Shown piece after piece: positions 7,753-59,839 of a stretch of 64,000 nucleotides of DNA. The stretch is from contig VUYT01000039.1 of NCBI GenBank assembly GCA_008802785.1, positions 95,673 to 159,672 of the forward strand, written 5' to 3'. The translations under genes and the position numbers were made by a program. Source of the DNA: Symmetrospora coprosmae (Eukaryota; Basidiomycota; Cystobasidiomycetes; Symmetrosporaceae). A model generated the notes under the pieces. The model ran no database searches, was not told the origin of the DNA, and worked only from the letters and a program-made list of their open reading frames with translations. Within the stretch, counting starts at the first letter, position 1, and each line of letters opens with the position of its first letter.

Positions 7753-9267
7753 ATGCCCGCACTCAACGATGACGAGGTGCGCCCTATGCTGTCCCTCGCT
7801 GCTGCACGCTGCACGCCGCAGTTCAGCAGGGAATGGCCCCGACTGCGGCGAGTGACGCCCAGAGCTAACTGACCTTCGCCGTCGCACCGCGCACCTGCAT
7901 CCACCCGCAGGTCCTCAGCGAGATGAAGAAGATGGTCAGTTCCTCGCACGTCGCTCATCTGCGCTGGCTCGCCCGCTGATCCTCTTGCTCCCGACCCACC
8001 GCTTTGCGCCTGCGCCGGTGCCCGCCGCGCCTTTGGCCTGATCCGCACCCCTCTCCCGTCCCTGTGATGCCTCCACGACCACAGGTCGCCTTCATCAAGC
8101 AAGAGGCGCTCGAGAAAGCCCGCGAGATCAAGGTCAAGGCCGATGAGGAGTTTGCCATTGAGAAGGTGGGCCTGCTTACGGGGTGCCCGGAGCCGGGGAT
8201 GCGATGTGCGAGACAGCCAGGACGCACGCGAGCCGGGCTGATTGCTTGCGACGCTGCTCTCGTACATGCAACAGGGGAAGATCGTCAGGCAGGAGTCGAT
8301 GAACATTGATGCGCTGTACGAGCGCAAGCGGAAGCAGGCAAACATCCAGAAGAAGATGTGAGCGGAAGCAGCGCCTGTCGCACAAGCGGGGTTTCTCAAC
8401 CTGGACGCGCCAGCTGCGAGTAGTCGCAGGCAGGACAAGTACTGAAGCGCTTCTGTGGAACATTCCGCATCACCAGCTCCGTATCCAACCAGAACAACAA
8501 GTCACGACTCACGCTCCTCGCTCTCCGTGAAGAACTGCTTGAGGAATCGTTCGACGATGCGCGTCAAAGCCTCAAGAGCGTGGTAGATGACGAGAAGAAG
8601 TATGAGGTGGTGCTCAAGAGTCTGATTCTGCAGGTGTGTGTGCCGCCCGAATGGCGTACTCGACCGGCCGCACTTTGAGGCCGACAACTCCTCTGACGCT
8701 CCTTCCCGTTACGATCCGCCCTCAGGCCCTCTTCACGCTGATGGAGAAGGACGTCAAGATCCTCTGCCGTGCGAAAGACTCGGCGCTAGTGAATCAGGCC
8801 AAGGACGAGGCGAAGAAGGAGTTCGAGGAGCAGGCTGGATTCGAGATTAAGCTCACCGTCGCAGAGGAGCTGCCAGAGGGGTCGTGAGTCGGGCTGCGGC
8901 ACCTGCTGTGCATGTCCTGCTTGCAGATCAAATATCGGTGCGCTAATTCGTATGCATGCCATGTTCCGGCGCAACAGGTCAGGAGGCATCTCCGTTTTCG
9001 GATATGGCGGCCGGATCAAGGTCGACAACACTCTCGACGAGCGGCTCAGACTGCTAGAGCAGCAGGTGCGTGTATTCCAGATCAAGGTACAACATGGACG
9101 ACAGGCTTACAGGCACTGCCTTAAAATGTCCACAGATGCTGCCGGAGCTGCGAGAGACATTGTTCGGCAAGAACGGTGCGTGCTTGTCTCTCTCATCCTG
9201 GACCTGCGGGTCTCAGGACTGACTTTCTTTGTTCATTTCTACAGAGAACCGCAAGCACTACACGTAG
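7753..9267 (+). CDS. VMA4: V-type proton ATPase subunit E
   Basis: Eight or more small exons spell the peripheral-stalk subunit E of the vacuolar H+-ATPase, which links the V1 ATPase ring to the membrane sector. Exon 1 (7753-7776) encodes MPALNDDE and exon 2 (7911-7934) VLSEMKKM, each exactly 24 nt. Recognisable blocks are AFIKQEALEKAREIKVKADE, FAIEKGKIVRQES, the helical KRKQANIQKK, SRLTLLALREELLEE, GGISVFGYGGRIKVDNTLDE and LLEQQMLPELRETLFGKN, ending in NRKHYT with TAG at 9265. The length, near 230 residues, is normal for the family. The N-terminal long helix and the C-terminal alpha/beta head are both present. It follows the RBM18-like gene by 251 nt on the same strand. Confidence 0.95.
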
Positions 9268-38619: not shown

Positions 38620-41531
38620 TCAGCAGATGACGCATTCATCCTTTGCCTGCTGCCGCGTCGGACGCGCCGCCTGTCCGGCCTTCTTGTTGCCGAGCTTCTT
38701 GAGCTCGCTCAGCCGCTGCATGGCCCGGCGATTTCCAGATGCTGCGAACAGAGCAGAGCCATATGGCAGGTGTCAGCCTAGGGCACTGTATGTTCTGTCA
38801 ATGGGAGGCAGGAGGCGTTGCTTACCGGCCGCTCGCAGGTACCACATTTTGGCTTCGTCCAGGTCGGCCTTTACGCCGATGCCGATCTCTGAATAGTATC
38901 TGTGAAGCGGCGTGGTGTCAGGGGGCTTGTCTGGCAGACCCTCATGTCAGCATTGCGCCTATACTCACCCGACTGCATATTCAGCCTTGCTCAGGCCCTT
39001 GTTGGCCGCGCGGCGCGCCCACAGGTAGGCTTCGCTGTCGCTCTGTTTCAAGACTCTGTGAAACGGACAGTGGAGGAACATGCGTAAGCGCATGCTGTGC
39101 AGTGCCCTTCGAAAATAGCGCATCAAACGACACGCGGTCAGATGGCGGCGCTCGGACTCACTCTGGACTTCCGGCTAGCGGCATCGATAGTCACCTCCGT
39201 CAGCATTGCTATTCCGCCCAACGAATGCCGATAGTGCACACTCACTGAGGTACCATCCACTGAGAGCCAGCTCGCTCTCGGCGTGCTGCTTCTCCGCTGC
39301 GCGCTAAAAGGCAAACACGCTCATCGCAACGTCAGTCTCGACATAGCATGCCGTGGCGATCCGCGCTGCGCTGCACCTACCGTATACCAGGCTATGCTGC
39401 GTCTCGGATCGACCGGACATGTCAAGCTGCCGTACTCATAACAGCTTCCAAGCCTGTACTGGCTCGGCGGGTGGCCGAGCTGGGCTGCCTGGGTGTACAG
39501 CTCCCTCGCCTGCGGCTCGTCCCGCACGACGGGGAGCGGTATTGGCTGTCCTTCCTTTGTAAACTCCTGCTGCTTCTCGTAAAGGGCTGCGAGCTCGTGC
39601 AGGGCGTGCGGGTTCTCCTCGTCGGCCTGCCCCGCGGCCTTCTTGAGCCACGTCACGGCCTCGCGCGGGTTGCGCTGCTGGCCGAGCAGCCCGCCGAGGA
39701 GAATCATGCCGAGCTTGTACATGCCCGCCGTGTCGCCCAGCGACGACGCCTTCCTGTAAAATAGAAATGCGCGGTTCGGGTCGCGCCGCGTCCCCGCGCC
39801 GACCTCATTGCATACGGCCGTGCGGTACGTCGCGGCAGGATGGTTCTGCTTGCTCGCCTGCACGTACAGATTGTACGCCTTTTCGTGGTCCACGGCCAGG
39901 CCGAGCGCGCCATGCCCTAAGCAGTTGGCGAGGAAGAACTGCGCGTCGGCGTACGCGGGCTTGCCCAGCCCGCTGCCCTGCGTAGCGAGCCGCTTGATGA
40001 GCTTGAGCGCCTCCTGCAGCAGGCTGTCTCTGTACTTTTTGACGCTCTTGGCGTCCTCGACGACCCCGCCCTGCTGCGTCGCCACGGCGAGCCTTCTCGC
40101 CGCTTCAATGAGGAACCGCGCAAAGTTGAACTGCGTCTCTGGATCCGGGTCCGACTTGATCCGGTTCCGGTAGTCGTCCACGGCCTGCTTTGTGATGGGC
40201 TGCGAGCGGTCCCGGTCCGATGTCCCAGACTTGGTCGAGGCGGTCGTGCGGGCGCGCGATAGGGAAGGAGGCTGCTGGTGCTGTGGGGGCGGAGGCATTG
40301 ACTGATGCGGTACGTGAGGCGGCGGAAAGACTTCTTGCTGATGCTGCTGAGGGTAGCCAATCTGCGGCATGTACTGCACCTGCTGCTGCTGCTGGTGGTG
40401 GTGTTGCGGGGCGGCGTAATTAGGATCCTCGTAATACCCTCCCGGACCTTGCATTGGATAACCCTGCTGTTGCTGCTGAGCATATGGGTCGCCGTACTGA
40501 GCCGGATCGGCATACTGACCCGGCTCGGCATACTGCTGTGAGTGGCCGTAGAAATCTGACCCGGGCGGAGGATGTTGTTGCTGGTAGGGGTAGTACTGTC
40601 CGGTATTGGGGTCGTAGTAGCCATCATTTGGATCGCCGTATGGAGGTTGGCCAGGGTGCTGTTGACTGTGCTGCGGTTGCTGCTGGTACGGGTCCTGACC
40701 GTAGTAGCCGCCGGGGCCTCCCCCGGCCTGTGGATCTTGCGGGTGCGGGTAGTAACCCTGCTGCGAGGTGGAAGCATACATGGACGGATCAAAGTCCGCG
40801 CCGTACTCTGACTGGGGTTGGTGCGGTCCTCCGGGCGCGGCCATCCCCTGCTGGTACGCCGCGTTCGGATCCCCTCCTCCTGGCGCGCCGCCGTACGGCA
40901 GCTCGCTCCCTTCGTACGACGCTCTGGACGGCGGGAGCGAGTATGGCGATCCCTGCTGGGATCGTGAGGGTACGCGTCCGACACTGTGTATGCTCGCAGG
41001 CTGGGATGGCCGCCTTTGCCGGTCTCCTGGGTGGCCCCCCTGTCCGCCCGGTCCACCGTTGCCGTTGCCGTTGCCGCCGCCAGCTGGGTCGTTCAGGTTC
41101 ATCTGCGAGAAGCTGAGCGAGTCGACGCTGTGCTGTCGATGAGGCTGACTGCCCTCGTCTGCGGTCACGTTGATAATATGGGTCAGCGACTGTGTGTGCG
41201 TGTGTGCGTGTGTCCTGGCTGGAGTCGCGTGGAGAACCGGGGAGTCGCGCCGGCGGCCACCCCGGACTTACTCACCTCTGCTGTAGCCAGCACTGCCATT
41301 CTGCCTCGGATCATTGCTGCTCCTGTTTGAGCTGCTCTCGTAAGAGCCAGGCCGTCCCTGTGTCTGTCCCTGTCCTGACCCGCGCTGGTATCGCTTGCCA
41401 GCTGCAGCGAGGTCGTCCCGCCTGAGCTCGTTCAGCGAGCGCGACGAGGTGGACGTGGGGAACTGCCCTGGACCGCTGTCATTGATGTAATGCTGCTGCG
41501 ACGACGATGACGCCTCTGCTGCGTTGGCCAT
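38620..41531 (-). CDS. SKT5: Skt5/Chs4-type chitin synthase activator (Sel1 repeats, CaaX box)
   Basis: The start at 41531 (MANAAEASSSSQQHY) and a 100-nt-class intron lead into DEGSQPHRQHSVDSLSFSQM. The N-terminal 300 residues are low complexity, rich in Gln, Tyr, Gly and Pro. From ITKQAVDDYRNRIKSDPDPE onward come tandem Sel1 repeats: ADAQFFLANCLGHGALGLAV, HPAATYRTAVCNEVGAGTRR, SLGDTAGMYKLGMILLGGLL, LGHPPSQYRLGSCYEYGSLT and KAEYAVGYYSEIGIGV. The C-terminus ends KDECVIC, a CaaX prenylation motif (CVIC); yeast Skt5/Chs4 also ends in a CaaX box that is farnesylated. The protein activates and localises chitin synthase III (Chs3). A GT-rich microsatellite (about 41187-41214) lies in intron 1, and a GGGA repeat (about 41549-41577) lies just upstream of the start. 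Confidence 0.93.
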
Positions 41532-41716: not shown

Positions 41717-43414
41717 ATGCCCGCCGTCACACCAGTATTCGAAATCTACGGGGCCGCACAGAGCTACGACTGGGGCACCCTCGGCAGGGACGGCAGCAAG
41801 GTCGCCCAGTTCAGCAAGGCCATCCCCGGGTTCGAGTACAGTGAGAGCAAGCCATACGCAGAGGTGCGCGCTCTGCATGCCTTACATGTCGGCCGTGTGC
41901 TGATGCGGGCACAGTACACAGCTCTGGATGGGCACCCACCCGTCCCTCCCGTCCAAGCTCGCCTCGGACGGCTCGAGCTTGAAGGAGTACCTCGAGAAGA
42001 ACGACGCCCTGCTGGGCGACAAGGTGCAGCAGCACTACCAGGGCAAAGACCTCCCGTTCCTCTTCAAGGTCCTCGCCATTGGAAAAGCCCTGTCAATCCA
42101 GGCACACCCGGACAAGCAGCTCGCGAAGCGCTTGTTCAAGGAGCGGCCCGATGTCTACAAGGGTGGGTGATGCGCATGCGGGTGCGCGCGAACACGCTCT
42201 GCTCCCCAGGACTGACCTCCCTGTCTCTGCTCGTGTCCGTGCAGATGACAACCACAAGGTGAGGCTGCTGCTCTGCTCTGCTCTGCTCTGCTCTGCTCTG
42301 CTCCAGCCCCGGCTGCCCGCAATGCAAAGACGCGTCTAGTCGCGCTGCAGATGTATCTGACGCGCCCAATCACTCCAGCCGGAAATGGCCGTTGCCATCA
42401 GCGAGACGTTTGCCGGCTTCTGCGGCTTCCGCCCCTTGCCGCAGATTGTCGACTTCCTCAAGAGCGTCCCAGAGTTCTCTGCCGTCGTGGGCGAGGACGC
42501 GTCGGCCGCATTCACCTCTGCCGTGGCGAGCGCGTCCCCCTCGCTCGTCGAGCGCTCCCCGCCCGCCGAGTCGCCAAAGCCAGAGTACGCCGACCTGCAA
42601 AAGGCGCTCCGCGCCCTCTTCTCCGCCCTGATGAACGCCAACCCGGACGAGGCCGTCAAGCCCCAGCTGGCAAAGCTCGTCAAGCGCTACCAGAGCGAGA
42701 CAGGCAAGACGCACAGCAAGCACCTCGAGTACGGCACCATCGAGGAGCTCGTCCTCCGCCTCAATGAGCAGTTCCCAGAGGACGTTGGCGCATTCTGCTC
42801 CTTCCTCCTCAACGTCGTCGACCTCAAGAAGGGCGAGGCCGTCTTCCTGAAGGCCAACGAGCCGCACGCGTACCTGAAGGGCGGTGCGTTCAGGCTTTCT
42901 TCCGCCCTTCCCAATCGAGTCTGAGAGACAAGCTCATCAAGCCTGCGTCTCCTTCATTCTCACAGACATCATGGAGTGCATGGCGACGAGCGACAATGTT
43001 GTCCGCGCGGGTCTGACGCCCAAGCTGCGCGACGTGCCGACGCTCACGTCCATGCTCACGTACACGTACGGCCCGTCCGACTCGCAGCTCATGGCGCCCA
43101 AGCCGTTCCGCTCCCCCTCAAAGTACACGACCGAGTACAATCCGCCCATCGAGGAGTTCTCGGTCCTCCTCGTCGACACGACGAAAGCGGGCAAGGACGA
43201 GGCAGAGGCAGAGGTGCATGCGCCGGTCGACGGACCAAGCATCATCATCGTCACGGAGCTCCCGGAGCAAGGTGCAAAGCTCTCGTATGGCAAGAGCGGC
43301 GAGAACATCAAGCTTACCCACCAGGGACAGACGCTGTTCGTCGGAGCTGGGACAGAGATCCAGTTCCACGGCAAGCTCGTCGCATACCGCGCGTACGTCG
43401 AGGTCGACAACTGA
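41717..43414 (+). CDS. PMI40: Mannose-6-phosphate isomerase (type I)
   Basis: Five exons (41717-41863, 41922-42162, 42245-42258, 42379-42883, 42966-43414) sum to 1356 nt, 451 residues. The enzyme interconverts fructose-6-phosphate and mannose-6-phosphate, feeding GDP-mannose for glycosylation and cell-wall mannan, and uses zinc. Motifs in order: YGAAQSYDWGTLG, PYAELWMGTHPSLPS, FKVLAIGKALSIQAHPDKQL with two zinc ligands (Q and H of IQAHPD), DDNHKPEMAVAISETFAGFC with the Glu ligand, YLKGDIMECMATSDNVVRAG, GLTPKLRDV and PKPFRSPSKYTTEYNPPIEE. Exon 3 is only 14 nt and encodes the centre of the DDNHK motif. The intron after it carries a CTCTG microsatellite. All catalytic motifs are intact. Confidence 0.96.
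42266..42302 (+). repeat. (CTCTG)n microsatellite in a PMI intron
   Basis: About seven tandem CTCTG/CTGCT units follow the 14-nt exon, inside the intron that ends before the PEMA-encoding exon. Confidence 0.85.
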
Positions 43415-43664: not shown

Positions 43665-45476
43665 TTACTTCCTAGGCTGCTTCTTCTTGTTCTTCCTGTC
43701 GGCATTGGCCTGCGCAACGAGGCGCTCCATCTCTCTGCGCTCCTCGTCCGTCTCGTCCACCTCTGCCTTTGCGAGGATGGTCCCGAGAGTGAGGATGGCC
43801 TTTGCGCGGATGACGAGCTGGACCTCGGAGAGGTTCCGGTCGCTCTGCTTGGATAGGACACCGTCGACGACCTGGCGGAGGATGCCCGCAACCTCGAACT
43901 TGGTGCCTTTCCAGGTGACGAGCATCATCTTGCCCATGAAGGCCTCCTCGCGCTGCGCCTGCTCGGCGTCCTGCCCTTCCTTCTCCATCTCTGCCATGCT
44001 GCTCTGCAGGTCCATGGTCGTCGACAGGAAGCTGTAACCTTCCTTGATGGTCGCGCCTTTGTCCTTCATGCGGCCCCACCAGCTAGGGATGCCGAGGAAG
44101 TTGCTGAGCGCCGTCTTGTGCGTCTTGAGGTACGCCGTGGCCTTTTGCACGTAGATCTGCCCGATGAGGTGGCACAGCTCGAGGCCAAACGACTGCCCTT
44201 TGAGGTCGTCAATCTCGTCGCGCATCCGCGCCTCCCACTTCTGGCATTCTGCATCCGACGGGTCCCCGGGCTTCGCGCTCTGGCAGTACGGCCGGATCCG
44301 GTCTTTGAGCTTGTCCGTGAGCATGGCGATCCGCTCAATCTCGTTCTTGCGCCGCTCGTCGTACAGCGCGTCCATCTGCTTGCGCTGCTCGACCGAGAGC
44401 TTGGGCTTGCCGCCGGGCTGTCCTGGCTTTTCCGCACCGCCCGCAGGTGTGGCGGCGTGGCTGTGCTGTCCATGGCCGTGCTTGTGCACGTCGGTCGAAG
44501 TGAGCGGAGGGGAAGTGCCATCTACTGATGTAGCTGCTGGGGCCGTGCCTGAAGCAGCGGCGGCCGTGGTACCAGAAGTAGATGCACCTGGCGCCGGAGC
44601 CGCTGCTGCCGGCGTCCCTGTCGCAGTTTGTGTCACGTTGTGCTTCTCCGCGGCTGCTGGAGTGGTGGCGAAGACGGCTCCTGTAGTGGTGTCCGAGACG
44701 GCCGGTGTCGCCGTTGCTGCATCACCCCCTTCGCCAGCCATCTCTGCTCGCATTGCCTCCTTCTCCTCCTCGGTCATCGAGATGTCCATGGCCTTGGTGA
44801 AGTCCTTGCCCATGCTGTGAGGCATCGCGCGAGGCACAAGTCTGGTGCGTCAGTCCTGTCCCTGCATAGCTCGGAGAATCGCACTCATATCGCACCTGAT
44901 CTCCCCAATCCAGTGGTAGAATCGCTCGCCACCAAACAGCTGGGCAAAGAGCTGGCCCGGGTCCATGAACCCGGCTTCAGGGGTGGACTGGTCGCTCTTC
45001 TTGCCATAGCGGTCGTATGCACCACGCAGGTCAGAATCCGAGAGAATCTGGTACGCCTCTCCAATCTCTTGGAAGCGCTGCTCGGCGTTCGGGTCGTCGC
45101 GGTTGCGGTCTGCCGGGATTTCAAAGGGGCGGGAGGGGACGTCAGAGTGCGCGATTCCATGAGGTGGTGCAGATTGGGCCTGTCGGAGCTGCGGGAAGCG
45201 CACCTGGGTGGAACTGCGGATTTGGGGACAACGCAGCCGTGTCAGTCCGAGTGACACCGACGCGCTTGCAGACCCGGACCCGCCCGAGTTGCCCGGCCCA
45301 CCCACCTTGAGCGCCGCCTTTCTGTACGCGGTCTTTATCTGAGCGTCTGTCGCGTCTGCTCTGACGCCCAAGAGCTCATAGTACCCTGTATCCTTGACGG
45401 GGGCGCCATCCCTCGAGAGGTTGGCACCGGTCGTCGGGGCGGCGGTGCCACCAGCGGCTGCCGAAATCTCTGCCAT
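43665..45476 (-). CDS. CAJ1: Caj1/Djp1-type J-domain protein (DnaJ-X)
   Basis: Four exons (45476-45306, 45213-45204, 45109-44896, 44814-43665) sum to 1545 nt, 514 residues. The J domain, KDTGYYELLGVRADATDAQI then AYRKAALKFHPDRNRDDPNA and EAYQILSDSDLRGAYDRYGK, depends on a 10-nt exon that supplies FHPD, the tripeptide that stimulates Hsp70 ATPase. MDPGQLFAQLFGGERFYHWI and ISMGKDFTKAMDISMTEEEK follow. A Thr/Ala-rich linker separates this from the DnaJ-X domain (RKNEIERIAMLTDKLKDRI, ELCHLIGQIYVQKATAYLKT, FLGIPSWWGRMKDKG, MGKMMLVTWKGTKFEVAGIL, LSKQSDRNLSEVQLVIRAKA). The C-terminus is basic (NKKKQPRK). Caj1 and Djp1 are cytosolic; Djp1 assists peroxisomal import. Neither specific role is proven here. 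Confidence 0.92.
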
Positions 45477-49056: not shown

Positions 49057-51806
49057 ATGTCCCTCCGCGCTCACATCAAGTTCGTTCTAGCCACCTCCAC
49101 GCACGCTGGCAGTCGGGAGATCCGCGCTTATTCCCGTCCACCTTTCGTCTCACAGGCCCGAACAGCTGCTCCAGGAGGCAAGGGAGCACCCTCACCGCAA
49201 GCTCACAGCGTACAGCCGCAAGCACGATGATGCTTCCGTCGGCGGAGCATATGGTGAGGACGGGCCAGTGCGTCCATTCGGGCTGGGGCCAATTCAGGAC
49301 TGACAGGGCGCCGGGTTTTCTGCTCCTCATCTGCAGTCGGGAGGTACACGACCGACCCGTACGTCTCTGGCTGCTTCGCCGCTCGCAGTCCGGCTCTCCG
49401 TGACGCCAGCTGTTTGCTGATACCGTCCCCGCTCCCTCCGCCGCCAATCTAGGATTCCCAAGTTCAAGATCCCCAGCAAGGGAATAGAAGCAAAGGCAGC
49501 TTACCAGGTCCGTATGGCCTGGTGCCTGCCATCGGACGCAAGTGATCATGCTTACGCAGGTTTCATCCATCTCCGTCTCCACAATATCCCTCCTACGCCG
49601 GTCACCACAGCTCGTCCATGACCACCTTGCTCTGGATGGAGAGCCACTCCTCAACCTGGCATCCTTCGTGCACACGTGAGTCTCTTACCTCATCACAGGC
49701 TGTACTCCCTGTCTGATCAGTAAACGGACCCGACGCACCACCCCCGTCAGCTGGATGCCCGACGAGGCCGTCAAGCTCATGGTGGAGAACATGAGCAAAA
49801 ACCTGATTGACGAGGACGAGTACCCGCAGATGGTCCAGATCCACTCGCGCTGCGTCTCGATGATTGCACACCTCTGGAAGGCCCACCACGCAAAAGACGC
49901 CCTCGGCACGGCTACCACGGGAAGCTCAGAGGCAATCATGCTCGGCGGCCTCGCCATGAAGAAGATCTGGCAGGCGAAGATGAAGGCCGCAGGCAAGAAC
50001 ATGCACGAGCCTGGGCCAGTGGGTCTGCGACATTTGCATGTGTGAACAGCCCGGAACACTGACCGACGTCCTGCGATTGTACAGAACGTAGTCATGGGTG
50101 CCAATGCGCAGGTACGTCTCGAGCATAGCCCAACAGTTTGTTGGAGGGTGGACTGACATACCTGCTCCTCTCCTTCTAGGTCGCTCTCGAGGTAAGGCTG
50201 GGTCGCAGTGCGTTGGCCCGCAATTGACCGTGATGAGGCGCTCACACGTGGTACGTCTTGCCGCACTGCAGAAATTCGCGAGGTATTTCGACGTCGAGTG
50301 CCGTCTCGTCCCGGTCGACGAATCCACTCGCTTCTGCATGTCGCCCGACCGGGCCATGGAGTACGTCGACGAGAACACGATCGGTGTCTTCGTCATTGCT
50401 GGCTCTACCTACACCGGGCACTACGAGGACGTCGAGCGTGTGCGTTGACCTGGCCTCTGGACACTTTGATGCTGCTCGCACCCTGACAACGATGTCCACT
50501 CTACTCCGCAGATGGACAAGCTGCTCACAGAGTACGAGGAGAAGACGGGCGTCCACGTCCCCATTCACGTCGACGCAGCCTCGGGCGGATTTGTCGCGCC
50601 TTTCGCTCACCCGAACTTCAAGATGAGCTTTGATCTCCCCCGCGTCGTGTCCATCAACACGTCTGGACACAAGTTCGGTCTCGCATTTGTCGGCGTCGGT
50701 TGGGTTGTCTGGAGATCTAAGGAGTTCCTGCCCAAGGAGCTGGTCTTCGAGGTGAGGCATAGAGACGAGGCATGCTTGCTGCTCTTGCTCTCGGCCCTGA
50801 CTGAATGCCACTGCAGCTTCACTACCTCGGGTCGACCGAGTTCTCCTTCTCGCTCAATTTGTACGCTGGGACAGTCCACTACCAAGCGACTTTTAGCGAG
50901 CTGACATCTTCCATACCAACAGCTCGAGACCTGCAGCGTGAGGTTCCTGGATTGACGGGTCCAAGATCATAGCTGATCTTCTCTCCGTGCGCGCAAAGAC
51001 CCATCATCGCCCAGTACTTCTCGCTCATCAACCTGGGCTTTGAAGGCTACCGCCGCATTGCGCTGGCAGACCTGTCGAACGCGCGACTGCTCAGCAAGGC
51101 ACTCGACAAGTCCGGTTACTTCAAGGTCCTGAGCGAGATCCACCACGGGCTCGACGGCAAGGAGGTACCGAGGGACAAGGAGGATCAGGTCGAGATGTAC
51201 AAGCCTGGCCTTCCCGTCGTCGCCTTCCGCTTCAGCGACGAGTTCCAGAAGAAATACCCCGACATTCAGCAGGTGCGATGCAAGATAGGAGGGGCTGGCC
51301 TTCTTTGGCAGGTGTGAAGGCATCCCGGTGACTCACGACCTTTACTCTTTGCCAGAAATGGGTCCAGACGCTCCTGCGCGCCAAGGGCTGGATCTCGCCA
51401 AACTACAACCTCCCTCCCAACGCCGAGAAGATTGAGGTCCTGCGTGTTGTCGTCAGGTGAGTCGGTTCCACACACCATTCGATGGCGCGGGGCTGAAGCC
51501 GATGCAACGCCTGTCAACGCCTGTCGCAGGGAGAACATGAGCGAGGAGCTCATCGATCTCTACTTGAGTGATCTGCTGGTGAGCAGCGCGTCTTGCCATG
51601 TGCAGCACTCCCTACCTCCAGCTGATCAGCACCGTCTTCGCACGCAGTCCGTCACGGAGGACCTCACCAAGGCCGATAGTCCCGCCAGGGGTCTTGCGAC
51701 TCTCGGCCGAGGCAAGTACAACCAGAGCGCAGAGCTCAAGGCTGGCAGCTCTGGTCACGAGGAGGGCGACGCCCACAAGCCGACCACGTACGCTCGACAG
51801 TGCTGA
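49057..51806 (+). CDS. GAD1: Glutamate decarboxylase (PLP-dependent)
   Basis: A gene of at least 14 exons, several tiny. Exon 1 (49057-49079, MSLRAHI) probably uses a GTTCGT donor and joins PEQLLQEAREHPHRKLTAYS (49156-49253). A 22-nt exon (49337-49358) and then IPKFKIPSKGIEAKAAYQ follow. Further on come LLNLASFVHTWMPDEA, ENMSKNLIDEDEYPQMVQIH, ALGTATTGSSEAIMLGGLAM and VVMGANAQVALEKFARYFDV (spanning a 12-nt exon, 50180-50191). PIHVDAASGGFVAPFAHPNF and the PLP lysine in NTSGHKFGLAFVGVGWVVWR follow, then HYLGSTEFSFSLNFSRPAAP (a 15-nt exon, 50923-50937, supplies SRPA) and QVEMYKPGLPVVAFRFSDEF. The enzyme makes GABA from glutamate, consuming a proton. The C-terminus is a polar tail ending ARQC; no plant-type calmodulin-binding segment is evident. 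Confidence 0.95.
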
Positions 51807-59631: not shown

Positions 59632-59839
59632 CTGATTCATCAGGGGAAAGTGTCATCTCAGGGTATTAGCTGTCGGTGGATAACATTGTATGCAGTTCCT
59701 CGTCATCGCAAAGTGCAGTATAGCATGAACGTGAAGGTACCAAATGCGAGGAAGGGTGACTATGCTACATGGGCACTCGTAACGGACTCGAGCGTTCGAG
59801 TAGCATCTGCGCGACAGCGACTGATGGGAGGACGCGTTG

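Follow-up and report, generated by a model that had tools for sequence, protein, structure and literature searches.

The window analyzed here, a 64-kb stretch of DNA of Symmetrospora coprosmae (GC content 59.7%), carries on its minus strand a gene for a J-protein which is predicted to consist of four exons (Table 1). The gene content and introns of the window suggest a GC-rich, basidiomycete-like fungus with dense introns. Splicing of 45476-45306, 45213-45204, 45109-44896 and 44814-43665 gives 1545 nt and a protein of 514 residues, the length that an earlier sequence-only reading had assigned to this frame. In this protein the Pfam DnaJ-X profile (PF14308) is matched over positions 3-203 of its 203 with a score of 183 bits. 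Since the predicted product has both a J domain with HPD and a C-terminal DnaJ-X domain, we call it Caj1/Djp1-type, a name based on this domain architecture; we also take H34 of yeast Caj1 to be the histidine of HPD. Searches by tblastn found no relatives of the DnaJ-X exon among 12 pattern stretches in a viral contig collection or among 50 pattern stretches in a prokaryote contig collection.

Table 1. Predicted features of the J-protein gene and other very small exons, in window positions
Feature	Position	Strand	Remarks
Exon 1, J-protein gene	45306-45476	-	ATG to ...AALK; Pfam DnaJ begins at residue 32
Intron 1, 92 nt, GTGGGT...CCGCAG	45214-45305	-	From splice scores
Branch motif CTGAC, intron 1 (branch A 45242)	45241-45245	-	Next AG is the microexon acceptor
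Microexon TTCCACCCAG, 10 nt	45204-45213	-	Codes for F-H-P and base 1 of the codon for D in HPD
Alternative acceptor AG at the microexon 3' end	45204-45205	-	10 nt beyond the microexon acceptor; preferred by the ab initio finder
Intron 2, 94 nt, GTGCGC...CGGCAG	45110-45203	-	From splice scores
Branch motif CTGAC, intron 2 (branch A 45142)	45141-45145	-	
Exon 3	44896-45109	-	Finishes D of HPD; remaining J domain
Intron 3, 81 nt	44815-44895	-	From splicing and splice scores
Exon 4	43665-44814	-	Linker, DnaJ-X domain (PF14308, 5.8e-54) and stop
14-nt microexon ATGACAACCACAAG, phosphomannose isomerase	42245-42258	+	Encodes DDNHK of DDNHKPEM
27-nt and 12-nt successive microexons, glutamate decarboxylase	50085-50111, 50180-50191	+	
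13-nt microexon CCGGAAGTCCAGA, Sel1-repeat gene (probable)	39162-39174	-	Restores the frame and the TGSPEVLKQSD stretch

The second exon of this gene is a predicted microexon of 10 nt at 45204-45213, which reads TTCCACCCAG on the minus strand and CTGGGTGGAA on the plus strand and occurs a single time within the 64-kb window. On the coding strand its surroundings are CCGCAG/TTCCACCCAG/GTGCGC. We use the term microexon for an internal exon of at most 15 nt (in a wider sense 30 nt) between two spliceosomal introns; the sequence here is bounded by AG and GT and has a branch motif in both flanking introns. The preceding intron has phase 0 and lies just ahead of F, and the following one interrupts the D codon in phase 1. 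Sequence, splice signals, frame and J-domain alignments confirm the original proposal that an exon of this size and HPD content lies at this position. The proposal had spoken of a "93-nt-class" intron; the measured lengths are 92 nt for intron 1 and 94 nt for intron 2. With an acceptor closer to the branch, intron 3 would end at 44842 and the next exon would start from 44841, for a protein of 523 residues. This acceptor is disfavored because its AG ends just 9 nt beyond the branch A, under the 5th percentile of this distance among the predicted introns of the window (16.3 nt).

Different ways of processing the two introns around the microexon lead to very different J domains. With the microexon included, the protein reads AALK-FHPD-RN and the DnaJ profile (PF00226) is matched in one stretch at residues 32-93 with 89 bits. 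The best PDB matches, which are to DnaJ (5nro, 1bq0), are gapless through ALKFHPDRN / AMKYHPDRN. Skipping of the microexon both deletes HPD and shifts the frame, as had been anticipated, and results in a product of 141 residues with a Pfam J-domain match at profile positions 2-28 of 63 only (29.5 bits). If intron 1 alone is kept, the frame is also shifted; if intron 2 alone is kept, the protein continues as KFHPGAL... and soon meets a stop. Retention of both introns keeps the frame and gives 576 residues, with a J-domain match which drops to 61.6 bits and falls into two stretches. An intact HPD is lost in all four of these readings (skipping, either intron kept, both kept), in line with the earlier statement that only inclusion yields KFHPDRN. 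Among the computed readings, inclusion alone yields an uninterrupted J domain.

When the 196-nt interval was dinucleotide-shuffled 200,000 times, 82 of the shuffles recreated an exon AG-NNN-CAY-CCN-G-GT whose flanking introns were both no shorter than 45 nt. Across the whole window the bare pattern has one match against a mean of 0.29 expected, and 23 of 100 shuffles contained at least one match. The bare pattern is no rarity at this scale, and therefore the weight of TTCCACCCAG rests on its place: the J-domain alignment requires exactly four residues between AALK and RN, which are supplied where the microexon lies. One could argue that the microexon is spurious and that the gene in truth encodes a J-like protein without HPD, especially as our ab initio gene finder produced an HPD-less model of 543 residues. 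Against this stand the exact restoration of an uninterrupted J domain, the AG/GT boundaries and branch motifs on both sides and the low frequency in shuffled intervals, and we regard a spurious exon as highly improbable.

Splice sites were scored using our own small gene finder, with the sites at 45100-45320 excluded from splice-site training. The output of the finder comprises 21 genes with 107 other introns in the window, and these predicted introns are the reference for all percentiles reported here. Their median length is 77 nt, 98 of the 107 have a CAG acceptor, and their commonest branch motifs are CTGAC (45 introns) and CTGAT (22 introns). Intron 1 has a total score at the 89th percentile (donor 83rd, acceptor 28th, branch 100th) and intron 2 at the 72nd percentile (donor 74th, acceptor 92nd, branch 50th). 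The microexon acceptor is the first AG past the branch motif of intron 1. The next AG is the end of the microexon itself, 10 nt further on and 39 nt from the branch A, and it scores 3.63 vs 3.49 for the first. Past the branch motif of intron 2 there is one AG only. Apart from the modest acceptor of intron 1 and this second AG, none of the sites looks as if it were kept weak to permit regulation. The AAG/TTC junction between exon 1 and the microexon recreates no 5' site, so we do not expect plain recursive skipping. The internal 5' site 10 nt past this junction resembles the "cryptic microexon" arrangement in PMC6224609, where the data are from human cells.

The sequence-only reading had suggested that a microexon placed on the single essential motif could act as an on/off switch for the co-chaperone. 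Under such a scheme, regulated skipping would set the level of active co-chaperone, with the frameshifted transcript for 141 residues presumably subject to nonsense-mediated decay. The removal of HPD together with the frame shift would suit this scheme, as would two published cases: a 20-nt microexon of Xlr2 in Trichoderma virens whose inclusion is glucose-dependent (PMC11121469) and a 9-nt DPN mini-exon in cold-stressed potato, for which alternative splicing is cited in PMC3340406. Yet the skip product would be cut short, keep under half of the J domain and not amount to an "off" co-chaperone. The total scores of the two flanking introns are at the 89th and 72nd percentile, no other AG stands between the branch motif and the microexon acceptor, and the window has about as many microexons of this size as random placement predicts (see below). 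Even for Xlr2, reads joining exon 1 to exon 3 are absent; when the microexon is left out, exon 1 and exons 3-5 form two transcripts with no exon 1-3 junction (PMC11121469). According to the same source, regulated microexons usually have a length that is a multiple of three, with the 20 nt of Xlr2 as an exception (PMC11121469), and the HPD exon with its 10 nt does not have such a length. The strength of the splice sites gives a mixed picture, with totals at the 89th and 72nd percentile but a 28th-percentile acceptor in intron 1 and a similarly scoring AG 10 nt downstream. Overall, we consider regulated skipping to be quite unlikely.

The ab initio finder passed over the microexon. Its model has a single 102-nt intron, joining 45306 to 45203, and thus combines the second acceptor (the AG at 45204) with retention of intron 2 to give a predicted in-frame protein of 543 residues lacking HPD. 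This model scored 1.25 vs -0.15 for the microexon model, a margin of 1.4 log units at an intron penalty of -17. Penalties of -17 and -20 both led to the choice of the 543-residue model, and the figures reported are from the -17 run; the margin is due to the fixed penalty carried by every intron, and a larger penalty would widen it. Neither protein homology nor J domains are known to the finder. All predicted models, the 543-residue one included, went into the training of its codon table, which causes a slight lean towards that model. Per codon, the three long exons of the gene score between 0.23 and 0.32, intron 1 plus microexon -0.19 (non-coding) and intron 2 0.04 (near zero). We dropped the open frame across both introns as a sign of a coding insert: it is weak evidence, since shuffles of the interval with matched composition are also open in 64% of cases. 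An in-frame stop is lacking in 25 of the 107 window introns, and 6 of the 107 are in addition a multiple of three in length.

Another possibility is that HPD is lost in frame, in the form of 543 or 576 residues, and that the resulting J-protein is stable, its J domain being broken and its DnaJ-X domain intact. Such forms could possibly be dominant-negative or Hsp70-independent. Both readings are open and in frame, the second AG is about equal in score to the first, and the finder favors the 543-residue model. A study on Cryptococcus neoformans (PMC3990503) also reports that in more than 11.4% of introns the intron-to-exon transcription ratio exceeds 0.05; the same study states that intron retention very commonly introduces a stop or a frameshift. 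For the J-protein gene, the absence of stops is weak evidence for the reason given above, the codon scores of the sequence to be retained are below those of the long exons, and the second AG is at a distance from the branch A that is within range, yet second in line. We therefore rate in-frame loss of HPD as very unlikely. We judge in the same way the particular case in which a choice between acceptors 10 nt apart, tied to retention of intron 2, would supply both the 514-residue J-protein and a stable HPD-less form of 543 residues; if this choice were true, splicing would edit only the Hsp70-activating motif and the DnaJ-X domain would be kept. The 543-residue model is likely more of an annotation hazard than biology. 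The deposited annotation of this gene may share the same HPD-less error.

Several other tiny exons were identified in the window. In the phosphomannose isomerase gene, the residues encoded by the 14-nt exon are gapless in the best PDB match. The glutamate right after it serves as a zinc ligand in Candida phosphomannose isomerase. This exon, about 3 kb from the HPD microexon, is a second one on an active-site motif. The residues of the two glutamate decarboxylase microexons align without gaps to glutamate decarboxylase 1 (3hbx) through NVVMGANAQVALEKFARYF, and the alignment has a two-residue gap just upstream of them. Support is weaker for the 13-nt exon of the Sel1-repeat gene, which we take to resemble Skt5/Chs4. 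Here the Pfam Sel1 match is downstream of the TGSPEVLKQSD stretch, and of the two PDB chains shown for this gene, 8sxq (fourth repeat) aligns with the stretch without gaps and 6ok3 (fifth and eighth repeats) with a two-residue gap. The predicted product of this gene ends in a CAAX-like CVIC. A V-ATPase subunit E gene, predicted ab initio, begins with two 24-nt exons at 7753-7776 and 7911-7934 on the plus strand, and its Pfam match starts at residue 19, past both of them.

The number of such exons was compared with a null model in which each gene keeps its number of introns and their positions are random. For the 109 introns of the 21 model genes, 6.1 (sd 2.3) internal exons of at most 15 nt are expected vs 6 in the models; for the 7 Pfam-supported genes, the expectation is 3.6 (sd 1.7) vs 3. 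Exons of at most 10 nt number 2 vs 4.2 expected in the 21 genes and 1 vs 2.4 in the 7 genes, and exons of at most 30 nt number 9 vs 11.8 and 5 vs 6.8, respectively. These counts depend on a model set which is mostly ab initio: four of the 6 exons of at most 15 nt have homology support (weak for the 13-nt one), and two others, of 6 nt (59670-59675) and 15 nt (50923-50937), are counted without it, the 15-nt exon being merged with its neighbor in the 7-gene count. The 13-nt exon was substituted by hand for a 1-nt call of the finder, with the following exon entered as 88 instead of 87 nt, and the four exons of the J-protein gene were likewise substituted for the finder's three. Tiny exons are ordinary in this window, where they are about as many as random placement predicts, so that microexons can be seen as the yield of this intron density. 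Given this null model and the other microexons present, the location of the HPD exon is unremarkable. That this exon was noticed may partly reflect ascertainment, because sequence alone reveals a microexon only in a strongly conserved protein.

Tiny exons on essential motifs are already a known kind. Plant GH32 invertases and fructosyltransferases have a 9-nt mini-exon coding for DPN of WMNDPNG, and in chicory 1-FEH IIb the loss of this exon is inferred to inactivate the enzyme (PMC3340406, PMC4477480). The likeness to our case is a tiny exon bearing an essential tripeptide, which in GH32 belongs to the active site; however, the 9 nt of GH32 keep the frame, whereas the 10 nt of the HPD exon shift it. 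The DPN exon is present in all Agave genes sequenced there and is reported for several species. The Xlr2 "switch" microexon of Trichoderma virens carries two Cys of a Zn2Cys6 cluster (PMC11121469). It shares with the HPD exon a fungal origin, a length that is not a multiple of three, essential residues, GT-AG introns and having been missed by gene prediction; it differs by its conservation in the genus and its glucose dependence in RNA-seq. P450 genes of the basidiomycete Phanerochaete chrysosporium are rich in small introns and have exons as short as 6 bp (PMC1184071). These are different genes with the same combination of small introns and tiny exons, and the microexons are described there as genome-wide and not linked to one P450 family. 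With regard to the motif itself, overexpression of yeast Caj1, a cytosolic J-protein, stabilised tryptophan permeases and the H34Q mutant did not (PMC9798423), so this histidine, taken above to be that of HPD, matters in a Caj1-type J-protein. In the open-licence literature searched, we found no paper on "microexon" together with "HPD motif", and no precedent for splicing that acts on the Hsp70-activating motif alone.

We propose, with a probability of roughly 85%, that the 10-nt coding exon is included constitutively and belongs to a normal J-protein with HPD, in a fungal genome dense in introns. Two introns would happen to fall across the HPD codons with 10 coding bases between them, and the microexon may have originated simply by independent placement of these introns. 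In intron definition, the splicing machinery deals with every short intron by itself. Each of the two introns would be recognised singly, across the intron, by its 5' site, its CTGAC branch and the first AG, so the tiny exon would need no exon definition and its length would hardly matter. Once both are removed, the mRNA would code for KFHPDRN. We infer constitutive inclusion from the strength of the signals, the null model and the loss of HPD in the other computed readings; the choice of the 543-residue model by the finder and the 28th-percentile acceptor of intron 1 speak against it. Two spliceosomes would also be cramped on an exon of 10 nt, so a degree of misprocessing is plausible.

The exon has the look of a genuine one with normal splicing, and these data as yet give no hint of an on/off switch at HPD. 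Splicing would target the single Hsp70-activating motif if an in-frame form lacking HPD were produced under regulation. If the exon is constitutive, gene predictors may annotate this J-protein without HPD, as our own finder did, and annotation errors of this kind could account for some of the "HPD-less J-like proteins" in fungi with many introns.
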